Shown: positions 5,398 to 64,000 of the stretch, piece after piece
Layout: each line of letters opens with the position of its first letter
How positions within the stretch are numbered: the first letter of the stretch is position 1
NCBI RefSeq assembly: GCF_001999945.1
Contig: NZ_CP019650.1
Location: 620,001-684,000, forward strand
Direction: 5' to 3'
DNA from: Microbulbifer agarilyticus
GTDB taxonomy: Bacteria; Pseudomonadota; Gammaproteobacteria; Pseudomonadales; Cellvibrionaceae
Length of the DNA stretch: 64,000 nucleotides
The notes under the pieces: model-generated
The model's database searches: none
Told to the model about the DNA's origin: nothing
What the model saw: only the letters and a program-made list of their open reading frames with translations
Translations under genes and position numbers: made by a program

Positions 5398-6423
5398 TTA
5401 TTTGATCCACACGTAATTGTGGCTGAACTTTGTGCCAGTCGACGCTTCTACAATGTACTGGGCGTATAGTGTGTTATTTATTTCCCTATGGAAAAACTCT
5501 CTACACTTGTGCGCCCAATAGCATCGTTTTGCGTCGTCATGGTGATATTCTTGAGTTAGGCGTATTAGGGACTCTTCATCGTCAAAATACACTAATGTTT
5601 CTTTGGGGATGTATTCATCAAATGCGGCAGCACTGTGCGTGAATATTAGTAAACCGTTCCCGGCCATCTGAGCAATTCGTGCGGATGAGTACCACTGATA
5701 GCCTTCTTGTCGGTTTAGGTTCAGCCCCATTTTACTGGTGGCTAATTTGCGATCGTAATCTCTCCCCCAGAGGGTGGGTTGTCCGAACATACCTGGGGTG
5801 TGGAAGCGGAAATTGCTGGGAAGCTTTCCCTGCAGTTCGGTCACCAAGTGGCCGCGACTGGTGTGGTTGTCTGATTTGCTGCAAAATAGCAGATCCGTGT
5901 GTAGCTCTTGGTTGTCACTTGCGAGAGCGCTGGCATCGGCTGTTTCGATACAGGGGTCAACAGGGTTTGGCATGTGCCAAAGCTTTGCTCTATTGCCGGT
6001 GAATCGTGCTAGCTCTTTTGGGCCGGTCGAGACGAACATGGCATCGGCGACTAAGCAGCGTTCCGCGATGTTGGCAGCGTTTCGAGGTACAAACAAAGGG
6101 TCGTTATTGCATCCCGCCAATATAGTGTACGGGTGCCGGCGGCGGATCTCCAAAAATGTATCGTTGTCGATTAGGTCGCAGTGCCCGAAAATTATTAGCT
6201 CTGGCTGAAACGCGGCCACCGTCTGGAGTAGGCGCCTATTTGTCCTTTTTCTTCCGAGATCGCGGATGCCCAGAGGGGCCTCGAATTTAGCGACGTCACG
6301 GTCACTAAAAGCCAGTACATTATGCCCCGCACGTATCAGTCCCGAGTATAGCTTTAAAGCCCAGCTGACTCGAAGGTGGCCGTACTTCCGGTATTGATGG
6401 TGATCTATGTGAAGTATGCGCAT
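5398..6423 (-). CDS. CgeB-like glycosyltransferase (GT-B fold)
   Basis: The protein of 341 residues has the look of the CgeB/glycosyl-transferase group 1 family. The N-terminus MRILHIDHHQYRKYG is followed by alternating strand-helix segments, a C-terminal RIAQMAGNGLLIFTH segment and a DEYIPKETLVYFDD stretch that matches the donor-binding half of these enzymes. The C-terminal tail is helical. It probably glycosylates a cell-surface glycan; substrate unknown. A clear promoter lies upstream (6489-6516). It is divergent from the ELM1-like gene at 6666. The family is recognised from conserved C-terminal features, and the overall sequence is divergent. Confidence 0.7.
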   Translation of the reverse strand: MRILHIDHHQYRKYGHLRVSWALKLYSGLIRAGHNVLAFSDRDVAKFEAPLGIRDLGRKRTNRRLLQTVAAFQPELIIFGHCDLIDNDTFLEIRRRHPYTILAGCNNDPLFVPRNAANIAERCLVADAMFVSTGPKELARFTGNRAKLWHMPNPVDPCIETADASALASDNQELHTDLLFCSKSDNHTSRGHLVTELQGKLPSNFRFHTPGMFGQPTLWGRDYDRKLATSKMGLNLNRQEGYQWYSSARIAQMAGNGLLIFTHSAAAFDEYIPKETLVYFDDEESLIRLTQEYHHDDAKRCYWAHKCREFFHREINNTLYAQYIVEASTGTKFSHNYVWIK

Positions 6424-48481: not shown

Positions 48482-48564
48482 GGAGTGCTCCTTGCAAGGT
48501 GGGTGGCATCAAAGTGTATCGAATTTCCCGCAGTTTGGGGTTGCCGGAGTCGGCGGCACTTAAC

Positions 48565-48580
48565 TACGTCAATTGACGCA
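48565..48580. promoter_or_regulatory. Candidate operator (7-2-7 inverted repeat) upstream of ureD
   Basis: TACGTCA-AT-TGACGCA contains the perfect 12-base palindrome CGTCAATTGACG (48567-48578). It lies 87 bases before the ureD ATG. A near copy, ACCGTCA-AA-TGACGTA, lies in the kinase/porin promoter at 58764-58779. The two-heptamer geometry with a two-base spacer is that of sites bound by NarL-type regulators, and such a regulator is encoded at 54186. Confidence 0.65.
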
Positions 48581-48667
48581 TACCGTCGTTCCACAATTCT
48601 TGCTTCCATTGTCCTCTAATCCAACCAATCGACGGCAGTCGTGGGCTGCCTTGCATGTACGTCTTTG

Positions 48668-50257: not shown

Positions 50258-51969
50258 GCCAAATGGATCGGGAAAGTTATGCACAGATGTTCGGCCCAAC
50301 CACCGGTGACCGGGTTCGTCTTGGCGACACCGAACTGTGGCTGCAGGTGGAAAAAGATTTCACTCGCTACGGCGACGAAGTGAAATTTGGCGGTGGCAAA
50401 GTTATTCGTGACGGAATGGGACAGAGTCAGCGTTCGTGTGAGGAAACGCCCGATCTGGTGATTACCAATGCACTGATTCTCGACCACTGGGGCGTGGTAA
50501 AGGCCGATGTATCGGTGAAAAACGGCCGAATTACCGCTGTTGGTAAAGCCGGTAATCCCGATGTGCAGGAGGCGGTTGATATTGTCATTGGCCCCGGGAC
50601 GGAAATTATTGCCGGTGAGGGTTCAATTCTTACCGCAGGTGCCATCGATGCGCACATTCACTTTATTTGTCCACAGCAGGTGGAGGAAGCGTTGATGTCG
50701 GGTGTCACCACCATGATTGGTGGGGGTACCGGCCCCGCTACCGGAACCAATGCCACAACGTGCACACCCGGCCCTTGGAATATTGGAAAAATGCTGCAGG
50801 CCACCGACAGCCTGCCAATGAATTTTGGCTTCCTCGGCAAAGGTAATGGCAGTTTGCCAAAGGCCATCGAAGAGCAAGTCGAAGCCGGGGCTTGTGGGCT
50901 CAAATTGCACGAAGACTGGGGGACTACCCCGGCGGCGATCGATTGTTGTCTGAGCGTTGCAGAAAAATACGATGTGCAGGTGGCAATACACACCGACACC
51001 CTGAATGAATCCGGCTTTGTTGATGACACGCTGGAGGCGTTCAAGGGGCGCGCGATTCACACCTACCACACGGAGGGCGCCGGTGGTGGTCATGCACCGG
51101 ATATTATCAAGGCCTGTGCTTCGGCCAATGTCCTGCCCTCGTCGACCAACCCTACACGGCCATACACGATTAATACCGTCGATGAGCATCTGGATATGCT
51201 GATGGTATGCCACCATCTGGATACCAGTATTCCGGAAGACATCGCTTTTGCTGATTCGCGTATTCGCAAGGAAACAATCGCCGCGGAAGACCTGTTCCAC
51301 GATCTGGGTGCTTTCAGCATGATTGCATCCGATTCACAGGCGATGGGGCGTGTGGGCGAGGTCATTACGCGCACCTGGCAAACCGCACACAAAATGAAAG
51401 TCCAGCGGGGAACGCTGCAGGAAGATCGTTCCGGCGATGCCGCTGGTGCAGATAATTTTCGCGCGCGTCGTTACATAGCTAAATACACCATCAATCCCGC
51501 CATCACCCATGGTATTGCCCATGAAGTCGGTTCCATCGAAAAGGGAAAGCTGGCGGACCTGGTGTTGTGGAAGCCGGCCTTTTTCGGCATCAAGCCATCC
51601 ATGATTATCAAAGGTGGCATGATCGCCGCAGCCCCAATGGGGGATCCAAACGCGTCAATCCCTACACCGCAGCCGGTGCACTACCGTCCGATGTTCGGTG
51701 CGTACGGTATTGCTGCAGCAAAGACCTCTCTAACGTTTGTTTCACAAATTGCGATGGAACGTGATCTCGGGAGAAAGCTCGGGCTCGCACGTACGCTTGC
51801 GCCATGTAAAAACACCCGCAGCGTACGCAAGAAAGATATGTTGCTAAACGACTGGCAGCCAGATGTGAGTGTGGACCCGCAAACCTATGAAGTGCGTGCC
51901 GATGGCGAGCTACTTACCTGCGAACCCGCCACAGAACTCCCCCTGGCGCAACGCTATTGCCTGTTCTGA
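50254..51969 (+). CDS. ureC: Urease alpha (catalytic) subunit
   Basis: The 571-residue catalytic subunit hydrolyses urea to ammonia and carbamate with a dinickel centre. All key residues fall at the same numbers as in the Klebsiella enzyme: His134 and His136 (IDAHIHFI), the carbamylated Lys217 (GLKLHEDWG), His219, His246, Cys319 and His320 (VCHHLD) and Asp360 (ASDSQAMGR). The enzyme should be active. ATG 50254 overlaps the ureB stop; an ATG nine bases earlier is less likely. Sequence length and all motifs are intact. Confidence 0.98.
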
Positions 51970-51986
51970 TTCCAAAGGAGATCTGT

Positions 51987-52523
51987 GTGAAATTGGATGT
52001 ATATCAACGGCTCGGAATTCGAACCGACGTAGCTGTAACGGAGCAGGTTGTTCTCGACCATCTGCAGCGTGACCGCGGGCGGCTGCGTGCAACTACACTA
52101 GGCGGCCACGAAATTCGAATTTTTTTGGAGCGCGGCAAGCCGCTGTTGGTAGGCGAAATCTTGCAGAGTGAATGTGGCAAGAACATTCAGGTGGTGGGCG
52201 CGGACGAACCAGTAACAACCGCCTACGCAGCGGACTGGCAGACGTTTAGCCGCGCTTGCTACCACCTGGGCAATCGTCACGTAAAGCTGCAGATTGCTAG
52301 TGCGGATGGTGAGCGTTGGTTACGTATTACCCCGGATCATGTGTTGGAAGAGATGCTCGGACTACTGGGGTTGACGTTAGAAAGTGAGTGCGCGGTATTC
52401 GTACCCGAATCCGGTGCCTACAGTGGCGGCCACGGGCACGCTAGCTCTCACAGCCATTCCCACGACCATTCCCATGGCCACTCGAATAATGCTGACGCAG
52501 CCCATGAGCATCACCACCACTGA
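51987..52523 (+). CDS. ureE: Urease accessory nickel metallochaperone UreE
   Basis: UreE carries nickel to the UreD-F-G complex. The 178-residue protein has the peptide-binding N-terminal domain (residues 1-70) and the metal-binding C-terminal domain with RACYHLGNRHVKLQI. The last 31 residues (148-178) are a His-rich tail with 13 histidines in HSHSHDHSHGH-like runs, typical of metal-buffering UreE tails as in Klebsiella. The GTG start at 51987 follows AAAGGAG six bases away. The 3' end overlaps the start of ureF by 20 bases. Confidence 0.95.
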   Translation: MKLDVYQRLGIRTDVAVTEQVVLDHLQRDRGRLRATTLGGHEIRIFLERGKPLLVGEILQSECGKNIQVVGADEPVTTAYAADWQTFSRACYHLGNRHVKLQIASADGERWLRITPDHVLEEMLGLLGLTLESECAVFVPESGAYSGGHGHASSHSHSHDHSHGHSNNADAAHEHHHH

Positions 52524-53193
52524 TACGGCACTACTGCGTTTACTGCAGCTATCCAGTGCGAGCCTGCCGGTAGGCGGCTATGCGTTTTCACAAGGATTGG
52601 AATTCGCTGTAGAGGCTGGTTGGGTAACCGACCTCGCCGGTGCCCGTGAATGGCTGTCGGTGCAGCTGCTGGAATCCATCGCAGGCGTAGATTGCCCGCT
52701 GCTACTGCGCTGCCATAGAGCGTTACAGGTGGACGGCGCAGCAGCGGGAGAAAACCACGAACTCGCATATTGGAATCAGTACACCCTGGCATGTCGTGAA
52801 ACCCGCGAATTACGACTCACGGATACTGCAACAGGTGCGGCGTTGATGCGTCTGCTGACACAGCTGGATATTGTGCAAACGCATTTGGATGGTGATGTCA
52901 GCTTTGTCGCAGCCTTTGCTGTTGCGGCGTATCACTGGCAACTCAACGAGGAGGCGGCCATGCTGGGGTTTGTGTGGTCCTGGCTTGAAAACCAGGTCGC
53001 CGCCGCGACCAAGCTGGTACCTCTTGGGCAGACTCAGGCGCAACAGTTGATTGGCGAGCTGCAGCGGGAAGTGCCGACAGCGATACAACGAGCGCGACAA
53101 CTTGAGGACCATGACCTTGGTGCTGGCCTGCCAATGCTGGCGATTGCCAGTGCCCGTCATGAAACCCAATACAGCCGCCTGTTCCGGTCTTAA
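52504..53193 (+). CDS. ureF: Urease accessory protein UreF
   Basis: UreF links UreD to the GTPase UreG during nickel insertion. The 229-residue all-helical protein has [24 protein letters not shown], the family's first motif, and conserved [19 protein letters not shown]. The C-terminal tail ends in [13 protein letters not shown], as expected for the segment that contacts UreG. ATG 52504 lies inside the His-rich tail coding region of ureE, so the ends of the two genes share 20 bases in different frames. Alternative in-frame ATGs upstream would add unconserved residues. Confidence 0.94.
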
Positions 53194-53221
53194 AAATCTC
53201 AAAAGTAATTCGGGGATAACC

Positions 53222-53863
53222 ATGACTTCACAAAAAAAACAAACCCTACGTGTTGGAATTGGCGGGCCGGTAGGCTCGGGTAAAACCGCATTATTGCGGG
53301 AACTGTGTGCCGCGATGCGCAACCACTACCAGATTGCTGTAGTAACCAATGATATTTACACACAGGAAGACGCACAGTTTCTCACTCGGCATGAAGCGCT
53401 GGACGCGGACCGAATTATTGGTGTGGAAACCGGTGGTTGCCCCCATACAGCTATCCGGGAAGATGCTTCCATGAACCTTGCCGCAATTGATGAATTGATT
53501 GCCCGTCATGGCGCGCTGGATGTCGTATTTGTGGAGAGCGGTGGTGACAATCTCAGCGCTACGTTTAGCCCGGAGTTGTCGGATCTCACTATTTACGTCA
53601 TCGATGTTTCCGCCGGTGACAAGATTCCTCGCAAGGGTGGCCCCGGTATTACCCGCTCGGATCTTCTGATGATCAATAAGATTGATCTCGCACCGCTAGT
53701 GGGCGCGTCGCTAGAGGTAATGGATCGGGATGCCAAAAAAATGCGTGGCGAGCGCCCATTTGTGTTTTCGAACCTGAAAGCGCAGCAGGGGTTAAAGGAT
53801 ATTATTCACTTTATTGTGCGCGAGGGGATGTTGGAGGAAAAAGCGATTCCAGAGATTACTTAG
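53222..53863 (+). CDS. ureG: Urease accessory GTPase UreG
   Basis: UreG is the SIMIBI-class GTPase that powers nickel delivery. The 213-residue protein has the P-loop GGPVGSGKT (residues 14-22), [12 protein letters not shown], the nickel-binding C73-P-H75 motif ([15 protein letters not shown]), the [17 protein letters not shown] segment, and the NKID base-specificity motif. Everything expected is intact. ATG 53222 precedes the conserved first strand [14 protein letters not shown] by eight residues. It ends the ure operon; no terminator is seen in the next 100 bases. Confidence 0.97.
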
Positions 53864-54185: not shown

Positions 54186-55142
54186 TTACGAGTCCGGATT
54201 CAAAGTGCGTATGGCAATGCCTGCCGCGGCGGTCCGGTTCTCAACACCCAATTTTGAAAATATGCCCTCCAGATGCTTGTTGACGGTACGCGGGCTCACC
54301 TCAAGGATCTCACCTATCTCCCGATTGGTTTTGCCATTGGCAATCCAAAACAGGACTTCTGACTCGCGCTTGGTAAGCGTGAGCTTTTCGCGCAGGATTT
54401 CTTCTCCTGCCGGTCCATCATCGTCCACTAGTTTTAGCAAGCAAGTCGTAGCATCCCGTCGCTCAAGAAATACTACTGACATTGTTTTTTTGAGTCCATC
54501 CAGCTTTAATTTGTTGCCAGCCGCGGGATCGCGTTGCAGCCAAATTTGCAGTGAGACGAGGAGCTTCTGTTTTGCGTCATCCTGCAGCGCTCCGGCACTA
54601 TCCAATAGTGTGTAGGTTTGTGGTGTCGCCCACTGCATTTGTCCCGTCAAATCTACGGTAAACAAAAACTGCCCGGTGGAGTCCAGTGCCTGGTGCGCAC
54701 TGGATGTCAGTCGCGCATTACTTAAATGCACTTTTATGCGGGCAATTAATTCAGTGGGCTGTATAGGTTTGGTCAGGTAATCCACTCCACCACTTTCCAG
54801 GCCGCGCACAATATCAGCAGAATCGGTGAGTCCGGTCATAAAAATAACCGGGATTGCCGCAAGAGTCGGATCGGCCTTGAGTCGACGGCAGGTCTCAAAT
54901 CCGTCCAGTCCCGGCATGACGGCATCCAGTAGAATCATATCCGGCCGTAACCTCTGGGCAATATTCAATGCCTGGCTGCCATCTAGTGCCACCAAGGCAT
55001 CGATTCCCGCTTGCTCAAGAGTGTCATTAATCAGGCTCAAGGTATCCGGAGAATCATCGACTACTAGTACGATATCCCCCGAGCGGCGCACAGGTCTTGT
55101 TGATTTTGCTGGCGAAGTCTCGACATCGTCGCAGGTGGTCAT
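54186..55142 (-). CDS. Response regulator with receiver, PAS-like linker and LuxR HTH
   Basis: The 318-residue regulator begins with a receiver domain (residues 22-140) with the phospho-acceptor Asp73 in MILLDAVMPGLDG. A central segment (about 148-240, FLFTVDLTGQMQWATPQ) looks like a degenerate PAS fold, which is unusual for such regulators. It ends with a LuxR HTH (LTLTKRESEVLFWIANGKTNREIGEIL, then RTVNKHLEGIFSKLG). The ATG overlaps the stop of the giant kinase gene as ATGA, so the two are coupled. Its likely targets are the ure and porin/urt promoters, from the shared operator (48565 and 58764). It converges with the small His-rich gene. Confidence 0.92.
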   Translation of the reverse strand: MTTCDDVETSPAKSTRPVRRSGDIVLVVDDSPDTLSLINDTLEQAGIDALVALDGSQALNIAQRLRPDMILLDAVMPGLDGFETCRRLKADPTLAAIPVIFMTGLTDSADIVRGLESGGVDYLTKPIQPTELIARIKVHLSNARLTSSAHQALDSTGQFLFTVDLTGQMQWATPQTYTLLDSAGALQDDAKQKLLVSLQIWLQRDPAAGNKLKLDGLKKTMSVVFLERRDATTCLLKLVDDDGPAGEEILREKLTLTKRESEVLFWIANGKTNREIGEILEVSPRTVNKHLEGIFSKLGVENRTAAAGIAIRTLNPDS

Positions 55143-58100
55143 GGGTATTCCTCTGATGCGTGTGTCGTGGGTTCACGCGAATGGTTTGCAAGCGACTCGC
55201 TCAAACGTTCAAAGCGCATACTGTTCGCCAGTTCGCGGAACTCGTCCAGCTGCTGCTCGCTGACGATGCCTGCAGCGGCAACTTTGTCCAAGATTCGTTG
55301 CACGCCACTACGGTAGCCGATCCGTGTGTAGGCCAGTAGCTCGACCAGTAGGGGGTGCTTGGGGAGTATGTCCGTTTGTGTATCTTCTGGGCAGGATGTC
55401 TCGGACTCTGAACTAACGATGATGTCTGCAGGAGAATCCAAGTCAGAATCAAAACGCCATTCCAGCGCCAACAGCTCCGCCATGGTGTCATAGAGCTTTT
55501 GGTTGACCAGGGGTTTAACCAGATAGGCGTCGTGGTGGGATTTAGGAGAGTCACCCGGCTGTAGGTGATGCTCTTTTGCTTCCGCCGATAGCATGACAAT
55601 TGGGCCATTAAACGCACGCTCACGCAAGGTCTTCGCCAGCGTTAGTCCATCCATACCGGGCATGCTTACGTCCAGCAAGAAGAGGTCGGGATTGCCCTGT
55701 TTAAGCTGAGCCAGGCAGTCTTCAGCGCTCCGGGCTTCACGAAGGATAAACCCAAGAGGCGAGAGCAATTCGCTAATTAGACCCCGATGTACCGGTTCAT
55801 CGTCCACCACCATGATGGTTTGCCGCGGCCCTTGGTAACCGGTGAGCTGTTGTGTTGGGATTTCACGTGGTAGCTCTGCATCTACCCACGACAACAGTAA
55901 TGAGACGGTGAAGCGACTCCCTCTACCCGGCGTGCTCTCCATCCGCAGTTCGCCGCCCATAATCTCCGCGAGTAAATAAGCAATAGTGAGGCCGAGACCC
56001 GTACCGGTTACCGAGGGACTGTCGCCATTACGCACTCGTTCGAAGGGTTTTAAAATGCGCGCTTGATGTTCGGGGTGAATACCGACTCCCGTGTCGGCAA
56101 TCGTGAATTCAGCTACCTGATTGCGATAGCGGATATGGAAATCGACTTTGCCAATGCGTGTGTACTTGATTGCATTCGATAGCAAATTGATCAGGATCTG
56201 TCGCAGACGCTTCTCATCGGCGATGACTGTAGAGGGCAATGTACTGTGAATGTGACAGTGCAACTGAATTCCTTTGGCTTCAGCCTGCGGCCCAAACATG
56301 TCCACCATCTGTTCGATTAGTTCAGGTAAACGCACGCGATTGCGGTATATATCCAGGCGCCCGGCCTCGATTTTGGAGATATCCAGTAGCCCTTCAATAA
56401 GATCGGTCAGATATTCTCCACTGCGTTTAATAATTCGCAGCCCGTTACGGTGTTTGTCGGGGATATCGGTCTGCTGGTTGAGTAGCTGGGCATAGCCGAG
56501 AATCGACTGCAGTGGCGTGCGCAGCTCATGGCTGATACCGGACAGGTAGCGGCTTTTTGCACTGTTCGCGCTTTCCGCCTCTTCCTTGGCCAGTTGCAGG
56601 GCGCGGTCGGTTTCCTTGTGCGCTTCAATTTCGCTGATGAGCAAGCGGGTTTGTCGGTTGGATTCCAGCTGGGCCACGACGCGGCTGTCATGGGTGAGCA
56701 GGAACAGCCAACACAAGACACCGGCAATTAGCATCAGCACCACAAACAGTGTCCAGAACGTTTGTTGCAGTACATCGGCGGCCGCAGGCAGAGTGGGGGC
56801 TATTTGTCCGTATATCAGCGATAGCATCCCCGCGATACAGGAGCCTGCGCCGATCAGCAATACGGTAAAGCGCCCGAGCCGGGAGTCGATGCCGTCGGCG
56901 ACCTGATCTGGCACCAGCATTTTGATCAGCGCAAGCAATTGCTGAGAGAAGTGTGCGTCGGGCTTGCACGCATCCATACAGCGGGAATCCAGCGAACAAC
57001 AAAGTGAACAGATTGGTCCCTGATAAGCGGGGCAAGAGCTTACATCTGCCGGTTCGAAGTCATTCTGGCAGATACAACAGGTCTTGCTCGACTGGAATGT
57101 GCCGGAGTCGGCTTGGGAATCGTCATCTGGAATGTTGCGGCGCACCGCCAGGTAAAAATGCCCGCGGGTCACCACGCCGAGAAATGGCACCATCACAAAA
57201 CAGATTGCCAAACTAATAAAGCTGGCAAAATTCTTTGCTCCTTCACCAAAGTGGCCGAGATAACACAGAATGCCGATGATAGACGCGAGCAACATCGAGC
57301 CCACGCCCACCGGGTTAAAGTCATATAGATGCGAGCGTTTAAACTCTACGTAAGATGGACTGATTCCTAGTGGCTTGTTGATCATCAAGTCTGCAGCCAG
57401 GCATCCTAGCCAGCTGATCGCGACGAGTGAAAAAATACCCAATACACCCTCCAACGCACCGTAGATACCCAGTTCCATCAGGATCAGCGCAATACTCACA
57501 TTGAACACCAGCCAAACTACTCGCCCGGGATGGCTACGGGTCAGGCGTGAGAAAAAGTTCGACCAGGCGATGGAGCCGGCATAGGCGTTGGTCACATTAA
57601 TCTTCATCTGCGAGACCACTACCATAATCCCGGCAAGAATCAGTGCCATGGTGGGAGATTGGGTGATGTAGTTGAAGACCATTTGGTACATGTACACCGG
57701 GTCCGCCGCTTGCAGACTGGAGGCACCGCGGGTGATTGCCAGGTAAGCGAGGAAGGAGCCGAAGAGCATCTTGATCACGCCGATCACAATCCACCCCGGC
57801 CCGGCAAGGGTGAGCCAGAACCACCAGCGCTTACGGTTCTCGCGGGTTTTTTCGGGCATAAATCGCAGGTAATCCACCTGTTCACCGATTTGCGCCACCA
57901 TTGCGAAAAAGACCGCACTGGCTGCACCAAATAGCATCCAGTTGAATTCGGCGCCTTGCGGGTTGTGTTGCGGTGCGTAGCGTGTCCAGTCCTCAACTCG
58001 AGATAGTTCAAACCAGGCGGCGATAGCGAGGGCGAGGCACTGCAAAAATAGCCATACCGGTTGTGTGCCAATTTGGAATTTGCTGATCGTTTGAATGCCG

Positions 58101-58690
58101 TGGGTGACGATAGGGATTACCGCAACGGCACAGAGTATGTAACCGATGGCCGGTGGAATCCCCAGTAGTGCGTGTAACGCGGAGGTGAGGATGGCCGCTT
58201 CAATCGCAAAGAAGATAAACGTAAATGAGGCGTAGATCAGCGATGTGATGGTGGAGCCGAGATAGCCGAAGCCGGCACCACGGGTAAGCAAGTCAATATC
58301 GAGCCCGTGTTTGGCTGCGTAGTAACTAATGGGAAAGCCGGTAATAAAGATCACCGCGGCTACGGCAAGCATCGCCGTGACGGTATTGATAAAACCGTAA
58401 TTTAGCGTCACCGCTGCCGCAATTGCTTCGAGAGCCAGGAACGCGGTGGCTCCCAGTGCGGTCTTTGCCACTTGTTCGATGGTAAAACGGCGCCCGCGCA
58501 CCGCGGTAAAGCGCAGTGCGAAGTCTTCGAGTGTCTCGTCTCCCACCCACTTGTTGTAGGTCCGCCTTACGCGGAAAACCTGTTGTGCGGGGCGCATAGC
58601 CTGTTGTTCGTTGTCGTTATCGTTGCCCGTAACTACGTTAACCACCGGGATTTGCCTGTCACTGCCAGAATATTCCTGTTTTTCATGCAA
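55139..58690 (-). CDS. Transporter-fused hybrid histidine kinase (NCS1-type permease, Cys cluster, HisKA, HATPase, receiver)
   Basis: This 1183-residue protein combines a nucleobase/allantoin-type permease (about residues 45-520, roughly twelve hydrophobic helices, with MVAQIGEQVDYLRFMP and NVTNAYAGSIAWSNFF) with a hybrid kinase. Nine cysteines lie in residues 538-575 (CCIC, then C553, C561, CC564-565, C571, C575), a possible metal or Fe-S site. Two more helices (about 609-671), a coiled coil, HisKA with His721 (SGISHELRTPLQ), HATPase (GTGLGLTIAYLLAE) and a receiver with Asp1007 (LFLLDVSMPGMDG) follow. The start codon is uncertain: TTG 58690 has a stop just upstream; ATG 58597 is the alternative. 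Probably it senses urea or a urea precursor during transport. Confidence 0.88.
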   Translation of the reverse strand: MHEKQEYSGSDRQIPVVNVVTGNDNDNEQQAMRPAQQVFRVRRTYNKWVGDETLEDFALRFTAVRGRRFTIEQVAKTALGATAFLALEAIAAAVTLNYGFINTVTAMLAVAAVIFITGFPISYYAAKHGLDIDLLTRGAGFGYLGSTITSLIYASFTFIFFAIEAAILTSALHALLGIPPAIGYILCAVAVIPIVTHGIQTISKFQIGTQPVWLFLQCLALAIAAWFELSRVEDWTRYAPQHNPQGAEFNWMLFGAASAVFFAMVAQIGEQVDYLRFMPEKTRENRKRWWFWLTLAGPGWIVIGVIKMLFGSFLAYLAITRGASSLQAADPVYMYQMVFNYITQSPTMALILAGIMVVVSQMKINVTNAYAGSIAWSNFFSRLTRSHPGRVVWLVFNVSIALILMELGIYGALEGVLGIFSLVAISWLGCLAADLMINKPLGISPSYVEFKRSHLYDFNPVGVGSMLLASIIGILCYLGHFGEGAKNFASFISLAICFVMVPFLGVVTRGHFYLAVRRNIPDDDSQADSGTFQSSKTCCICQNDFEPADVSSCPAYQGPICSLCCSLDSRCMDACKPDAHFSQQLLALIKMLVPDQVADGIDSRLGRFTVLLIGAGSCIAGMLSLIYGQIAPTLPAAADVLQQTFWTLFVVLMLIAGVLCWLFLLTHDSRVVAQLESNRQTRLLISEIEAHKETDRALQLAKEEAESANSAKSRYLSGISHELRTPLQSILGYAQLLNQQTDIPDKHRNGLRIIKRSGEYLTDLIEGLLDISKIEAGRLDIYRNRVRLPELIEQMVDMFGPQAEAKGIQLHCHIHSTLPSTVIADEKRLRQILINLLSNAIKYTRIGKVDFHIRYRNQVAEFTIADTGVGIHPEHQARILKPFERVRNGDSPSVTGTGLGLTIAYLLAEIMGGELRMESTPGRGSRFTVSLLLSWVDAELPREIPTQQLTGYQGPRQTIMVVDDEPVHRGLISELLSPLGFILREARSAEDCLAQLKQGNPDLFLLDVSMPGMDGLTLAKTLRERAFNGPIVMLSAEAKEHHLQPGDSPKSHHDAYLVKPLVNQKLYDTMAELLALEWRFDSDLDSPADIIVSSESETSCPEDTQTDILPKHPLLVELLAYTRIGYRSGVQRILDKVAAAGIVSEQQLDEFRELANSMRFERLSESLANHSREPTTHASEEYP

Positions 58691-58763
58691 GTTTCATGCA
58701 ACAAGAATACCGAATCGATCCTTTTCTTACTTCTTTAGTTTATCCACCACGGATTACCTGAGA

Positions 58764-58779
58764 ACCGTCAAATGACGTA
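58764..58779. promoter_or_regulatory. Candidate operator (7-2-7 inverted repeat) between kinase and porin
   Basis: ACCGTCA-AA-TGACGTA has the core CGTCA-AA-TGACG, 73 bases upstream of the kinase start and 106 bases upstream of the porin ATG. Its right half-site is the exact inverse of the left half-site at ureD (TACGTCA). A TATAGC -10-like box at 58800-58805 would place the repeat about 40 bases before the porin transcript start, a usual activator distance. Confidence 0.62.
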
Positions 58780-58885
58780 GTCCTGTGCCCTTATTCGCGT
58801 ATAGCGCCTCTGGTTCGCCAATCGAATAATCGATAGCAGCAAAAAATAACCAATCGAGACCACAACGACGACTAAGGGGATATCC

Positions 58886-60083: not shown

Positions 60084-61370
60084 ATGAATGTAAAAAAAAT
60101 GATCGCCAGTATCGCCCTGGCGGCGGGCACGAGCGTCATCAGTAGTGTGGCGCTGGCGGCAGAGACCATCAAAGTCGGAGTATTGCACTCCTTGTCCGGC
60201 ACTATGGCCATCAGTGAGACCACGCTGAAGGACACCGTGTTGATGATGGTCGACGAGCAAAACCGTAAGGGTGGTCTACTCGGTAAAAAACTCGAAGCTG
60301 TGGTGGTAGACCCCGCGTCTGACTGGCCACTGTTCGCAGAGAAAGCACGCGAGCTGCTGACCAAAGAGGAAGTAGATGTAATTTTCGGTTGCTGGACATC
60401 TGTTTCCCGTAAATCCGTGCTGCCGGTGGTGGAAGAGCTGAACGGTCTTATGTTCTACCCGGTGCAGTATGAGGGTGAAGAGTCCTCCAAAAACGTGTTT
60501 TACACCGGCGCCTCACCCAATCAGCAGGCCATTCCCGCGGTGGATTACCTGATGTCTGATCTAGAAGTAGAGCGCTGGGTACTGGCCGGCACCGACTATG
60601 TCTATCCGCGTACCACTAACAAGATTTTGGAAGCCTACCTGAAGGCTGCAGGTGTTGCCGAAGAAGACATCATGATCAGCTACACCCCGTTCGGCCATTC
60701 TGACTGGCAGGGTATCGTTTCTGATATCAAAAAATTCGGCGGCGAGGGTAAGAAAACCGCTGTTGTTTCCACCATCAACGGTGACGCCAACGTGCCTTTC
60801 TACAAGGAGCTGGGTAACCAGGGTGTAAGCTCAGAGGACATTCCCGTAGTGGCCTTCTCTGTGGGTGAAGAAGAGCTCTCCGGTATTGATACTGGCCCGC
60901 TGGTTGGTCATCTCGCCGCCTGGAACTACTTCCAGGGTATCGATAGCGAAGCTAATGAGTATTTCGTGGAGCAGTGGAAGGCGTTTATCGGCGACGAGAA
61001 GCGCGTAACCAACGACCCGATGGAAGCGACCTATATCGGCTTCAATATGTGGGCCAAAGCGGTAGAGAAAGCGGGTACTACTGAAGTTGACGCGGTCGAG
61101 CAGGCGATGATCGGAATTGAGTTCCCGAATCTGACGGGTGGCATAGCGAAGATGAACAAGAATCATCACCTGTCGAAGCCAGTGTTTATCGGTGAGATCC
61201 AGGATGACGGCCAGTTCGAAGTAGTTTGGGAAACCGACGGTGTCGTTGCCGGTGATGCCTGGTCCGATTTCCTGCCTGGTTCCAAGGATCTGATTGCCGA
61301 TTGGACAGCACCGATCAAGTGCGGCAACTACAACACCAAGTCCAAGGCATGTAGCGGTCAGGTTCAGTAA
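60084..61370 (+). CDS. urtA: Urea ABC transporter substrate-binding protein
   Basis: UrtA binds urea in the periplasm for the UrtBCDE importer. The 428-residue precursor has a signal peptide (residues 1-25/26) and the mature start ETIKVGVLHSLSGTMAISE, the type 1 periplasmic-binding fold. Segments such as VDVIFGCWTSVSRKSVLPV, LFYPVQYEGEE-like LMFYPVQYEGEESS, AGTDYVYPRTTNKILEAYL and PFGHSDWQ are hallmarks of UrtA rather than of amino-acid binding relatives. AAAGGAATTTATTA precedes the ATG. It follows the porin gene. Confidence 0.96.
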   Translation: MNVKKMIASIALAAGTSVISSVALAAETIKVGVLHSLSGTMAISETTLKDTVLMMVDEQNRKGGLLGKKLEAVVVDPASDWPLFAEKARELLTKEEVDVIFGCWTSVSRKSVLPVVEELNGLMFYPVQYEGEESSKNVFYTGASPNQQAIPAVDYLMSDLEVERWVLAGTDYVYPRTTNKILEAYLKAAGVAEEDIMISYTPFGHSDWQGIVSDIKKFGGEGKKTAVVSTINGDANVPFYKELGNQGVSSEDIPVVAFSVGEEELSGIDTGPLVGHLAAWNYFQGIDSEANEYFVEQWKAFIGDEKRVTNDPMEATYIGFNMWAKAVEKAGTTEVDAVEQAMIGIEFPNLTGGIAKMNKNHHLSKPVFIGEIQDDGQFEVVWETDGVVAGDAWSDFLPGSKDLIADWTAPIKCGNYNTKSKACSGQVQ

Positions 61371-61395
61371 GTCGAACGGGATAGCGGAGAACGTA

Positions 61396-63027
61396 GTGAA
61401 CGCATTACTACACAAGCTTTGGTCGGTTGCGATTGTACTGTTGTTGTTACCGACCGGCAGTCCGCTGGCACAGTCAGAGCCCGCAGGAATCTCTGCGGAC
61501 TCTGTACTCCAGCAGTTGCCCGGGGCAAGTCTGAAAAAAACAGGCGAATTGATCGGGCAGCTGGAGCAAGCTGGGGGCGCAGAAATGCGGCCCCTTTTTG
61601 AGGTTATGCTGGCTGGTGAACTCTACTTTATTAAAGAGAGTAAACAGATTATTGCTATTACCAAAACAGAACGCCGTACGTACATGGGCCGTGATGTGTT
61701 TGGTGGGGCTACCCTTGGTGAGTTCACATCACGGGAAATTAAGAAGATTCGTGTTAATAACCGGCTTCGCAGTCAGTTGCGCGAGACCCTAGCGCGCATT
61801 GATCTACTGCATGGCAGAAAAATTGCGCAAAAGCAGGCCGTACTGGCGATGCTGGATGATCTGAATGAACAGAATATGCGGCTGCTGACAGTGGCGCAGC
61901 AAGGCGGTGTTGACGGTGAGGTGGCACGCCTGATCGATCTTGCCGCAGCGATGGTGCAGTTGCGCGATAGCCGTGTTTCCGAAGAGCGACTAGAGGCTAT
62001 AGGCATCATGACTGGGCAGCTGGAGCCCGCGGTGCGTAACCAGTTACAGCGCTTGGTGAACGATGCGCAAGAACAGGACTTGGCCGTACGAGCTGCCGCA
62101 CAAAAAGCGCTAGACAAAATATCCGAGCGTATAGAATTCTTTGGCCAGTTAGAGCAGCTATTCTTTGGCCTAAGCCTGGGGTCGGTACTGCTGTTGGCAG
62201 CCATTGGCCTCGCCATCACATTTGGCGTAATGGGTGTGATTAATATGGCCCATGGCGAAATGATCATGCTGGGGGCCTACACCACGTATGTTATCCAGCA
62301 GCTATTCCCAGGGGCCATTGCATACTCACTTTTGATTGCTGTACCTGCGGCGTTCCTGGTTTCCGGCAGTGTGGGAGTGCTGATCGAGCGAGGTGTTATT
62401 CGCCACTTACAGGGGCGCCCGTTAGAAACGCTCCTCGCTACTTTCGGTATCAGTCTGATACTGCAGCAGGCTGTGCGCAGTATCTTTTCGCCACTCAATA
62501 TGCAGGTGGTCACGCCAAACTGGATGAGCGGCTCGCTGGTGATTAATCCAGTTTTTTCGGTTACCTATAACCGCTTGTATATATTGCTCTTTGCGCTGGC
62601 GATCTTTGCCGCCCTGGTCGTTGTACTGAAAAAGTCCTCGCTTGGCTTGAATGTACGTGCCGTATCGCAAAACCGCGATATGGCCAAGGCGATGGGTGTG
62701 CGCACCGAGATGGTAGATGCCATGACTTTTGGTCTTGGCTCCGGTATTGCCGGTGTGGCTGGGGTTGCCTTGTCACAGCTGACCAATGTTGGGCCAAACC
62801 TGGGCCAGTCTTACATTATTGATTCTTTTATGGTGGTGGTCTTCGGCGGGGTCGGGAACCTGTTGGGTACGCTGGTGGGAGGCTTTTCCCTTGGCGTAGC
62901 AAATAAATTCCTTGAGCCCTCCATGGGTGCGGTACTGGCGAATATTATTGTACTTGTTGGCTTGATCCTGTTTATCCAGAAGCGACCGAAAGGGTTGTTT
63001 CCACAGCGCGGGAGGGCAGCGGAATGA
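61396..63027 (+). CDS. urtB: Urea ABC transporter permease UrtB
   Basis: UrtB is one of the two membrane subunits of the urea importer. The 543-residue protein has a signal-like N-terminus (to about residue 26), a periplasmic helical domain of about 230 residues typical of proteobacterial UrtB, then eight or more helices with the LivH-like core (NMAHGEMIMLGAYTTYVIQQ, ATFGISLILQQAVR, VRAVSQNRDMAKAMGV). The GTG start at 61396 follows CGGAGAAC at a suitable distance. Its stop overlaps urtC as ATGA. Confidence 0.95.
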   Translation: MNALLHKLWSVAIVLLLLPTGSPLAQSEPAGISADSVLQQLPGASLKKTGELIGQLEQAGGAEMRPLFEVMLAGELYFIKESKQIIAITKTERRTYMGRDVFGGATLGEFTSREIKKIRVNNRLRSQLRETLARIDLLHGRKIAQKQAVLAMLDDLNEQNMRLLTVAQQGGVDGEVARLIDLAAAMVQLRDSRVSEERLEAIGIMTGQLEPAVRNQLQRLVNDAQEQDLAVRAAAQKALDKISERIEFFGQLEQLFFGLSLGSVLLLAAIGLAITFGVMGVINMAHGEMIMLGAYTTYVIQQLFPGAIAYSLLIAVPAAFLVSGSVGVLIERGVIRHLQGRPLETLLATFGISLILQQAVRSIFSPLNMQVVTPNWMSGSLVINPVFSVTYNRLYILLFALAIFAALVVVLKKSSLGLNVRAVSQNRDMAKAMGVRTEMVDAMTFGLGSGIAGVAGVALSQLTNVGPNLGQSYIIDSFMVVVFGGVGNLLGTLVGGFSLGVANKFLEPSMGAVLANIIVLVGLILFIQKRPKGLFPQRGRAAE

Positions 63028-64000
63028 ATGTGCTCAATAGCCTCGCGCAGGCGTCGTACCGTCTTTTGGCTGCAATGCGTCAACCGGGGCGCGGTACCTC
63101 CTGGTTGGTGGGGATACTACTGGTGGTGACGCTGGCAATGTCTGCAGCGAACCTCCTGTTGCCGGCCGACTCTCCCTTTTATGTGAGTACCTACACCATT
63201 ACGTTGATGGGCAAATATCTCTGTTTCGCCATGTTGGCGATGGCGGTGGATATTGTCTGGGGCTACTGCGGAATACTGAGTCTTGGCCATGGGGCTTTTT
63301 TTGCGCTCGGCGGCTATGGCATGGGTATGTACCTGATGCGTCAAATCGGTGATCGCGGTGTGTATGGAAATCCGAATCTGCCAGACTTTATGGTATTTCT
63401 GAATTGGCAAGAACTCCCCTGGTATTGGTTCGGTATGGACCAGTTCTGGTTCGCCATATTTATGGCACTGCTGGTGCCTGGAACTCTGGCCTTTGTATTT
63501 GGTTGGTTGGCATTTCGCTCGCGGGTAACAGGTGTTTACCTTTCGATTATGACACAGGCACTGACCTACGCTCTCATGCTCGCATTTTTTCGCAATGAGA
63601 TGGGGTTTGGCGGTAACAACGGACTGACAGACTTCAAAGATATTCTTGGTTTTGATCTGCAGGCAGATGCCACTCGTGTAGCCTTGCTTCTAGTTACAAC
63701 TTTTTTTGTGGTAGTTACCTTCTTGGTGAGCCGTACAATCGTGCAGTCGCGTCTGGGGCGGGTGATCGTCGCGGTAAGGGATGCGGAGGCCCGTACACGT
63801 TTCCTCGGCTATCGTACCGAGCATTACAAGGTATGGCTGTTTGTGTACTCGGCATTGATTGCTGCAGTAGCCGGTATGCTTTATGTGCCGCAGGTCGGCA
63901 TTATCAATCCGGGGGAGTTTTCCCCACTCAATTCCATTGAAGTGGTGGTGTGGGTAGCTGTTGGCGGCCGCGGTACATTGTACGGTGCCATTGTCGGCGC
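63024..64000 (+). CDS. urtC: Urea ABC transporter permease UrtC (partial, runs off the right edge)
   Basis: The second permease of the urea importer starts at ATG 63024, overlapping the urtB stop by four bases. About 325 residues are visible. They include a LivM-like core: AMLAMAVDIVWGYCGILSLG, GHGAFFALGGYGMGMYLMRQ, VTGVYLSIMTQALTYAL, and VRDAEARTRFLGYRTEHYKV, with the late PGEFSPLNSIEVVVWVAVGG. The C-terminus and the ATPase genes urtD and urtE lie beyond the window if the operon is complete. Confidence 0.95.
   Translation, partial: MNVLNSLAQASYRLLAAMRQPGRGTSWLVGILLVVTLAMSAANLLLPADSPFYVSTYTITLMGKYLCFAMLAMAVDIVWGYCGILSLGHGAFFALGGYGMGMYLMRQIGDRGVYGNPNLPDFMVFLNWQELPWYWFGMDQFWFAIFMALLVPGTLAFVFGWLAFRSRVTGVYLSIMTQALTYALMLAFFRNEMGFGGNNGLTDFKDILGFDLQADATRVALLLVTTFFVVVTFLVSRTIVQSRLGRVIVAVRDAEARTRFLGYRTEHYKVWLFVYSALIAAVAGMLYVPQVGIINPGEFSPLNSIEVVVWVAVGGRGTLYGAIVG

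Follow-up and report, generated by a model that had tools for sequence, protein, structure and literature searches.

The window, which is the whole stretch of 64,000 nucleotides analysed here, contains a gene for a transporter-like membrane domain fused to a hybrid histidine kinase. The gene is divergent from a group consisting of porin-urtA-urtB-urtC, and the urease genes ureDABCEFG are located beyond the regulator gene. The link to urea pointed out in a preliminary description of this DNA is supported. The following features were assigned:

48564..48581, no strand assigned: predicted operator CTACGTCAATTGACGCAT upstream of ureD, 24.8 bits
48641..53863, plus strand: urease genes ureDABCEFG (Pfam UreD, Urease gamma, beta, alpha, UreE, UreF, cobW/UreG)
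54186..55142, minus strand: probable cognate response regulator, receiver and LuxR-type HTH, its start overlapping the kinase stop by 4 nt
55139..58597, minus strand: NCS1-like permease/hybrid histidine kinase, probably 1152 aa from M32
55487..55816, minus strand: receiver domain, residues 959-1068, with D1007 (PF00072, 75.3 bits)
55895..56218, minus strand: HATPase_c, residues 825-932 (PF02518, 90.3 bits)
56360..56560, minus strand: HisKA, residues 711-777, phospho-acceptor H721 (PF00512, 62.7 bits)
56681..56890, minus strand: two further membrane-spanning helices at about residues 601-670, seen in the mean hydropathy of the kinase rows
56966..57079, minus strand: cysteine module C538-C575 with two proposed four-Cys sites, {538,541,561,564} and {553,565,571,575}
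57131..58558, minus strand: NCS1-like membrane domain comprising residues 45-520, with about 12 helices predicted
58763..58780, no strand assigned: predicted operator AACCGTCAAATGACGTAG between the kinase and porin-urtA, 17.6 bits
58886..60043, plus strand: porin-like protein, first of the divergent group (NCBIfam porin_ExtI, 72.6 bits, below the cut-off of 150; no convincing Pfam match)
60084..61370, plus strand: UrtA, urea ABC transporter binding protein (TIGR03407, 571.9 bits, cut-off 492.75)
61294..63027, plus strand: UrtB frame (PF02653, 148.1 bits)
63024..63998, plus strand: UrtC by position, cut by the end of the window

Several starts in this list are those of open frames. The UrtB frame overlaps urtA, and the frames of UreE, UreF and UreG (51957-53863) overlap by about 140 bases each, so that the true starts of UrtB, UreF and UreG are probably located downstream. 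For the permease-kinase, the open frame comprises 55139-58690 on the minus strand (1183 aa), with a TTG at 58690 as its upstream end. In an alignment of 44 sequences, M32 was identified as the nearly invariant first residue, which makes a protein of 1152 aa likelier than one starting at the TTG; the true start is probably residue 32.

The kinase half carries the elements of a hybrid histidine kinase, namely HisKA with its His, HATPase and a receiver with its Asp. All three were found by Pfam where the preliminary description had placed them, and the two further helices that it had described behind the cysteine cluster are present by hydropathy. Conservation was analysed on 78 kinase rows, consisting of the window protein and 77 relatives (one of two copies from L078 was left out, and L139 is cut by a contig end). 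The position of H721 is occupied by His in 77 of these rows, and the position of D1007 by Asp in 74, with three gaps and one Ala. With residues 1-700 as query at least 8000 homologue matches were obtained, the closest protein among the matches listed being from Microbulbifer agarilyticus with 98% identity. The mean identity to the window protein is 58% for the transporter part, 58% for the cysteine module, 55% for the kinase, 43% for the receiver and 39% for the helix-linker part. Since there are at least 8000 homologues and conservation is highest in the transporter part and the cysteine module, a chance architecture was dismissed.

Of 398 genomes sampled from the phylum, 52 (the own genome counted) have the kinase family; one further match, the 53rd, is to a stand-alone protein that is only distantly related. 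Fused copies also exist in L217 (Okeania) and L227 (Phormidium), two records titled as cyanobacteria, in which no urea or amide gene was recognised in the stretch read. Two shorter forms, L092 and L140, have open frames of 894 and 899 aa near FmdA; their match to the window protein stops at the HATPase, and they are apparently devoid of a receiver.

The membrane half was the more difficult part to assign. The preliminary description had suggested an NCS1-type transporter and had proposed a Pfam search, which identified HisKA, HATPase_c and Response_reg as expected but not Transp_cyt_pur: at E<=1, neither PF02133 nor any other model was found anywhere in residues 1-700, and no STAC linker was listed among the Pfam models. 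A search of the own genome with PF02133 gave no match at the position of the permease-kinase, and profile searches of the PDB, run with A1 and A3, were likewise without a match. About 12 hydrophobic segments are present if one long hydrophobic stretch is counted as two. Judged by Pfam, residues 45-520 thus match no transporter profile, a result that the preliminary description had named as speaking against its proposal; it was overturned by profile-profile comparison. When residues 40-530 of the profile from the 78 kinases were compared by hhalign, NCS1 (PF02133 proteins, 8 rows including one fragment of 19 aa) was matched over 444 columns with a probability of 98.9 and an E of 1.5e-17, as against 2.6 for SSS (15 rows including one fragment of 32 aa) and 44.5 for AGCS. 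Membership of SSS or AGCS was rejected on these values, and the NCS1-type assignment was borne out. Of the stand-alone relatives, two of four passed the PF02133 cut-off of 23.5 bits (L073 with 36.4 and L076 with 31.8), and L074 and L075 gave no match in the same scan. By these routes the membrane half is recognisable as NCS1 kin, which becomes visible only through profile-profile comparison and the stand-alone relatives. Weak matches to what we take to be AGCS proteins (four of six read) were set aside as a distant LeuT-fold likeness.

Common motifs of NCS1 and the kinase were located around helices 3, 6 and 8. In an alignment to Mhp1 that runs through one intermediate, L274, Mhp1 Q121, N314 and N318 correspond to E164, N365 and N368 of the kinase, and S312 corresponds to K363. 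The residues E164, Q267, E270, Q271, Q361, K363, N365, N368 and Y370 are the same in all 161 kinase rows and all 132 stand-alone rows. At the positions of Mhp1 S312 and T313, presumably sodium-site residues in Mhp1, K363 is present in 161 of 161 kinases and I364 in 160 of 161, and sodium site residues of the Mhp1 type are not kept in the kinases. A sodium site need not occur in every NCS1 member. Read together, E164, N365, N368 and K363 may make up a pocket that is independent of sodium and suited to a small polar ligand. Some residues differ between kinases in urea and amide contexts, the strongest including L478, L175, F261, D330 and A263; owing to common ancestry these differences are taken as suggestive.

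For the region between the membrane domain and the two helices, the preliminary description had reported nine cysteines. They are all present in the window protein, and eight of them (C538, C541, C553, C561, C564, C565, C571 and C575) stand unchanged in all 78 kinase rows; the ninth, C539, is kept in only 23 of them. The conservation in homologues on which that description had made its proposal depend was therefore found for eight positions. A set of 132 stand-alone rows was available, composed of 119 of the best 120 of 4207 proteins and 13 locus proteins, some probably being duplicates; P0231 (940 aa) was left out. All eight cysteines are present in 121 of these, and exactly 538, 541, 561 and 564 in the other 11, with no intermediates. 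Because the 11 rows are without exactly one set of four, the eight cysteines are suggested to form two four-cysteine metal sites, the 11 rows being one clade and the loss maybe one event. No family match was obtained when the cysteine region of three proteins was searched with Pfam.

The stand-alone relatives were searched for with the window domain and four stand-alone proteins. Among the best 120 of 4207 matches, 119 are stand-alone proteins of about 550 aa; many are from acidophiles, and several are named purine-cytosine permease family protein. Thirteen stand-alone loci, derived from two genome families, were read (the more distant L073 and L074 and the fragment from G804 were left out). 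Six of them are located in ureDABCEFG operons, in five of which a NiCoT gene was seen, six have a kinase-regulator pair divergent from permease-FmdA-AmiE, and one has neither arrangement. In permease-FmdA-AmiE, the stand-alone permease occupies the place of the ABC importer, which is the best hint that the fold handles urea and amides. In a quick tree, midpoint-rooted and supported by SH-aLRT only, a branch with a value of 98 parts 10 stand-alone from 161 fused rows, a topology compatible with one fusion event. On this tree, 24 changes are needed to account for the context labels.

Neighbourhoods were compared for 160 kinase instances from 162 loci, a kinase being defined as a frame of over 750 aa. 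The loci were fetched from homology searches, with 80 places in one round and 80 of 578 loci kept in another; L264, L266, L267, L271 and L272 entered through a stand-alone permease neighbour and all others by kinase homology. For 126 kinases, 8 kb were available on both sides. Genes for uptake or hydrolysis of urea or amides are present near 117 of these 126, or near 113 of 122 without the four full-flank loci derived from permeases. The 126 consist of 28 with a UrtA of at least 60% identity nearby (class U), 72 with a more distant UrtA-like protein (class F), 70 of which have the formamidase FmdA, 10 with urease genes alone (class E), 7 with FmdA and no ABC importer (class P), and 9 with no linked gene within the limits used (class N), among the class-N loci being L161 and L164 with a UrtA just outside the limit. 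Two F-type binding proteins that were tested both pass the NCBIfam cut-off for UrtA. None of the 33 U loci contains FmdA, and none of the 87 F loci contains ureABC. An ABC importer gene is located near 100 of the 126 kinases, with the kinase divergent from urtA in 96 of the 100, and in 119 of 126 a relative of the regulator is encoded downstream of the kinase, on the strand of the kinase gene. These locus counts are not independent, since near-duplicates from Bradyrhizobium and Microbulbifer are included, and a de novo clustering of neighbours was dominated by shadow frames.

In 37 genomes of the genus, including the own one, the kinase, UrtA and UreC are jointly present in 12 and jointly absent in 25. 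In 21 other genomes of the order, UrtA was identified in 14, with an identity of 39-41% in two of these, and the kinase was identified in 2, showing that the urt genes can do without the kinase. The preliminary description had considered urea or a purine/allantoin precursor as ligand; by the 117 of 126 neighbourhoods the urea part is supported and the range is narrowed to urea and short-chain amides. In these neighbourhoods, which were searched for urea and amide genes, no sign of purines or allantoin was noticed. Evidence from neighbourhoods cannot separate urea from another signal of the same state.

A common DNA site was sought in the divergent regions of these loci. The set comprised 120 regions, namely those of 138 U, F, P and E kinases which have an annotated divergent gene within 900 bases. 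An exact 6-N4-6 dyad is present in 29 of the 120, compared to at most 2 for any dyad in shuffles. With a weight matrix the palindrome aTaCGtcANNTgaCGtAt was identified at 10 bits or more in 115 of 120 regions as against 0.5% of shuffled ones, an in-sample value in that seed consensus and matrix were derived from the same 120 regions. A matrix refined on the F loci alone identified the site in 30 of the 33 other regions at 8 bits or more (null 1.3%) and in 23 of 33 at 10 or more (null 0.6%); one refined on the non-F regions recovered it in 84 of the 87 from F loci (null 3.3%), with the seed consensus of all 120 as the starting point in both cases. In 107 of 120 loci, the highest-scoring site overall is the one in the divergent region. 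The palindrome is absent from L077, L126 and L232, which are divergent from ureA and whose regulators may read another site. In the E-class loci L093, L095 and L155 no site above 10.6 bits was found, and in the stretches fetched for stand-alone permeases in urease operons none above 13.5 bits. A second site, their own, is located before 15 of 80 scored F-class FmdA genes, for example at L096:18054, L097:17470 and L110:1480.

The site upstream of ureD lies in a kind of place outside the training set. In the 4.26 Mb genome the core TACGTCANNTGACG occurs without mismatch exactly twice, before ureD and between the kinase and porin-urtA, where about 0.5 occurrences are expected. With up to two mismatches the motif is not rare in the genome, 147 places being found as against 361 for the reversed pattern, and with up to three mismatches the window contains 2 places compared to 1.42 expected. 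The ureD-upstream site is present with 22.5-24.9 bits in all 12 kinase-bearing genomes of the genus, the own one included. In 13 kinase-free genomes of the order, 20 of 21 regions upstream of urtA or ureD are without the palindrome. G049, which has the kinase, contains a 17.7-bit site before the porin, and its ureD upstream region scores 3.6 bits. In G037 no such kinase was found, yet a 17.8-bit site precedes ureD (L360, site at 6135); chance, a relic or an incomplete assembly are options for its origin.

Some minor features of these regions were recorded. The 8-mer CCAATCGA, which is present in both window promoters, was dropped because it is not conserved in congeners. In four of seven congener loci read (L145, L146, L149 and L150), ATACGCGTAT follows the palindrome at a distance of 12 bases towards the porin; at the corresponding place of the window, about 58790-58805, the sequence is TTCGCGTAT. 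Promoter scans of both promoter regions of the window gave no sigma-70-like site, and a scan identified two terminator-like sites inside the kinase start region.

Taken from domain order, NCS1 kinship, the invariant pocket-like residues and cysteines, gene linkage and the placement of the palindrome, the window protein is proposed, with a probability of roughly three in four, to be a sensor kinase for urea or short-chain amides built on an NCS1-like permease, of the kind of CbrA and Ks-Amt5, which would switch on uptake and breakdown genes through a shared DNA site. We infer the ligand, the direction of the response, the metal, the contact of regulator and palindrome, the signal path and any transport by the domain. 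The NCS1-like domain would bind urea, or a short-chain amide (formamide or acetamide, for example) in relatives, and a conformational change would reach the hybrid kinase by way of the two-helix hairpin and, before it, the cysteine module, which would be cytoplasmic and probably stabilised by zinc. The kinase would then phosphorylate the LuxR-type regulator encoded behind its gene, and the regulator would bind aTaCGtcANNTgaCGtAt and activate both the porin-urtABC group and the separate urease operon. A more far-reaching proposal, to which slightly less than an even chance is given, is that the NCS1-like domain with its two-site cysteine module represents a previously unrecognised permease for urea and short-chain amides, sodium-independent by virtue of K363, which would occur alone in some bacteria (including acidophiles, in urease or formamidase-amidase operons) and would have been fused once to a kinase, giving rise to a transceptor for urea and amides that is widespread in proteobacteria and has a DNA site and a regulon of its own.

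Whether the fused domain still transports is a question within the sensor reading and not opposed to it. In a true transceptor, urea or amides would be carried and the kinase would read the transport cycle, as in the model proposed for CbrA in the available part of PMC13022988. The transporter part is among the best conserved and keeps the residues invariant in stand-alone permeases. However, according to the part of the source seen, Ks-Amt5 binds ammonium without translocation, so that conservation is no proof of transport, and with an ABC importer gene near 100 of 126 kinases transport by the kinase would be unneeded; continued transport is considered possible, with the balance somewhat against it. 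The status of a candidate transceptor, which had been suggested from the sequence at the outset, is supported alongside the NCS1-type membrane half and the hybrid kinase. It is much less probable that sensing (of nickel, iron or redox state) is done by the cysteine module and that the permease part is an anchor. Eight cysteines invariant in every kinase row would suit such a sensor, but kinases from loci with formamidase have the same eight, as do 121 of the 132 stand-alone rows, which have no kinase, and the remaining 11 rows are without exactly one set of four, as is expected of a structural site. Sensing of nickel or iron, as put forward in the preliminary description, is not preferred, since the cysteines are just as invariant beside a formamidase where urease is not nearby.

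A classical NCS1 ligand, such as a nucleobase, allantoin or hydantoin sensed as a precursor of urea, would agree with the kinship and with the name purine-cytosine permease-like that some databases give to relatives. This is very unlikely, because the gene found in 70 of 72 full-flank F-class loci is for formamidase and not for a purine enzyme, and in kinases the position of Mhp1 W117 is occupied by F or L and that of Q121 by E. An equally slight chance is given to a vestigial permease domain in a kinase responding to nitrogen status or ammonium. Repression of the Methylophilus fmd operon by high ammonia (PMC10781810, accessible part) would be in line with it, but the same passage names formamide and urea as inducers, and the NCS1-like domain and its pocket-like residues are strongly conserved.

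Among known systems, the SLC5/STAC kinases CbrA, CrbS and RpuS likewise have a transporter-type membrane domain fused to a kinase. They differ from the window protein in that its membrane half is NCS1-like and not SSS (98.9 versus 2.6), that it contains a cysteine module and two helices before the kinase, and that it adjoins genes for urea or amides, not acetate or histidine. In the available text of a 2026 preprint (PMC13022988), CbrA is described as a rare transceptor, and the terms NCS, nucleobase and urea are absent from that text. CrbS is a hybrid kinase which acts with a LuxR-type regulator; for CrbR, the accessible part of PMC5715377 describes the requirement of an imperfect inverted repeat, the ACTU motif, the sequence of which is different from that of the window palindrome. 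Ks-Amt5 is similar in that a transporter for a nitrogen compound was recruited as a kinase sensor, but the transporter is of the Amt/Rh family and, in the part of the source available, its response regulator is yet to be identified. To the NCS1 permeases Mhp1 and CodB (PF02133), the likeness consists of a full-length profile match and motifs around helices 3, 6 and 8; in contrast to them, the window protein is fused to a kinase, has K363/I364 at S312/T313 and ends its permease part with the cysteine module. Among the matches listed for open-access PMC, no paper describing an NCS1-like permease-kinase was found. If the sensor reading is true, a third transporter family besides SLC5 and Amt would be added to the transporter-kinase transceptors, a named sensor, regulator and DNA site would be proposed through which urea and formamide could induce their own uptake, and a candidate family of urea/amide permeases would be at hand.

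For Methylophilus methylotrophus, the accessible part of PMC10781810 describes the operon fmdCABDEF, coding for a porin, a formamidase and a urea/amide ABC importer, which is induced by formamide and urea. A similar gene set is located beside many relatives of the window kinase. The difference is that a putative positive regulator is encoded inside the Methylophilus operon and that no kinase is named in that part of the paper. A hybrid histidine kinase and a LuxR-type regulator were also drawn among the urea genes in one genome paper, for which the figure legend is the source and membership of the present family is not implied.
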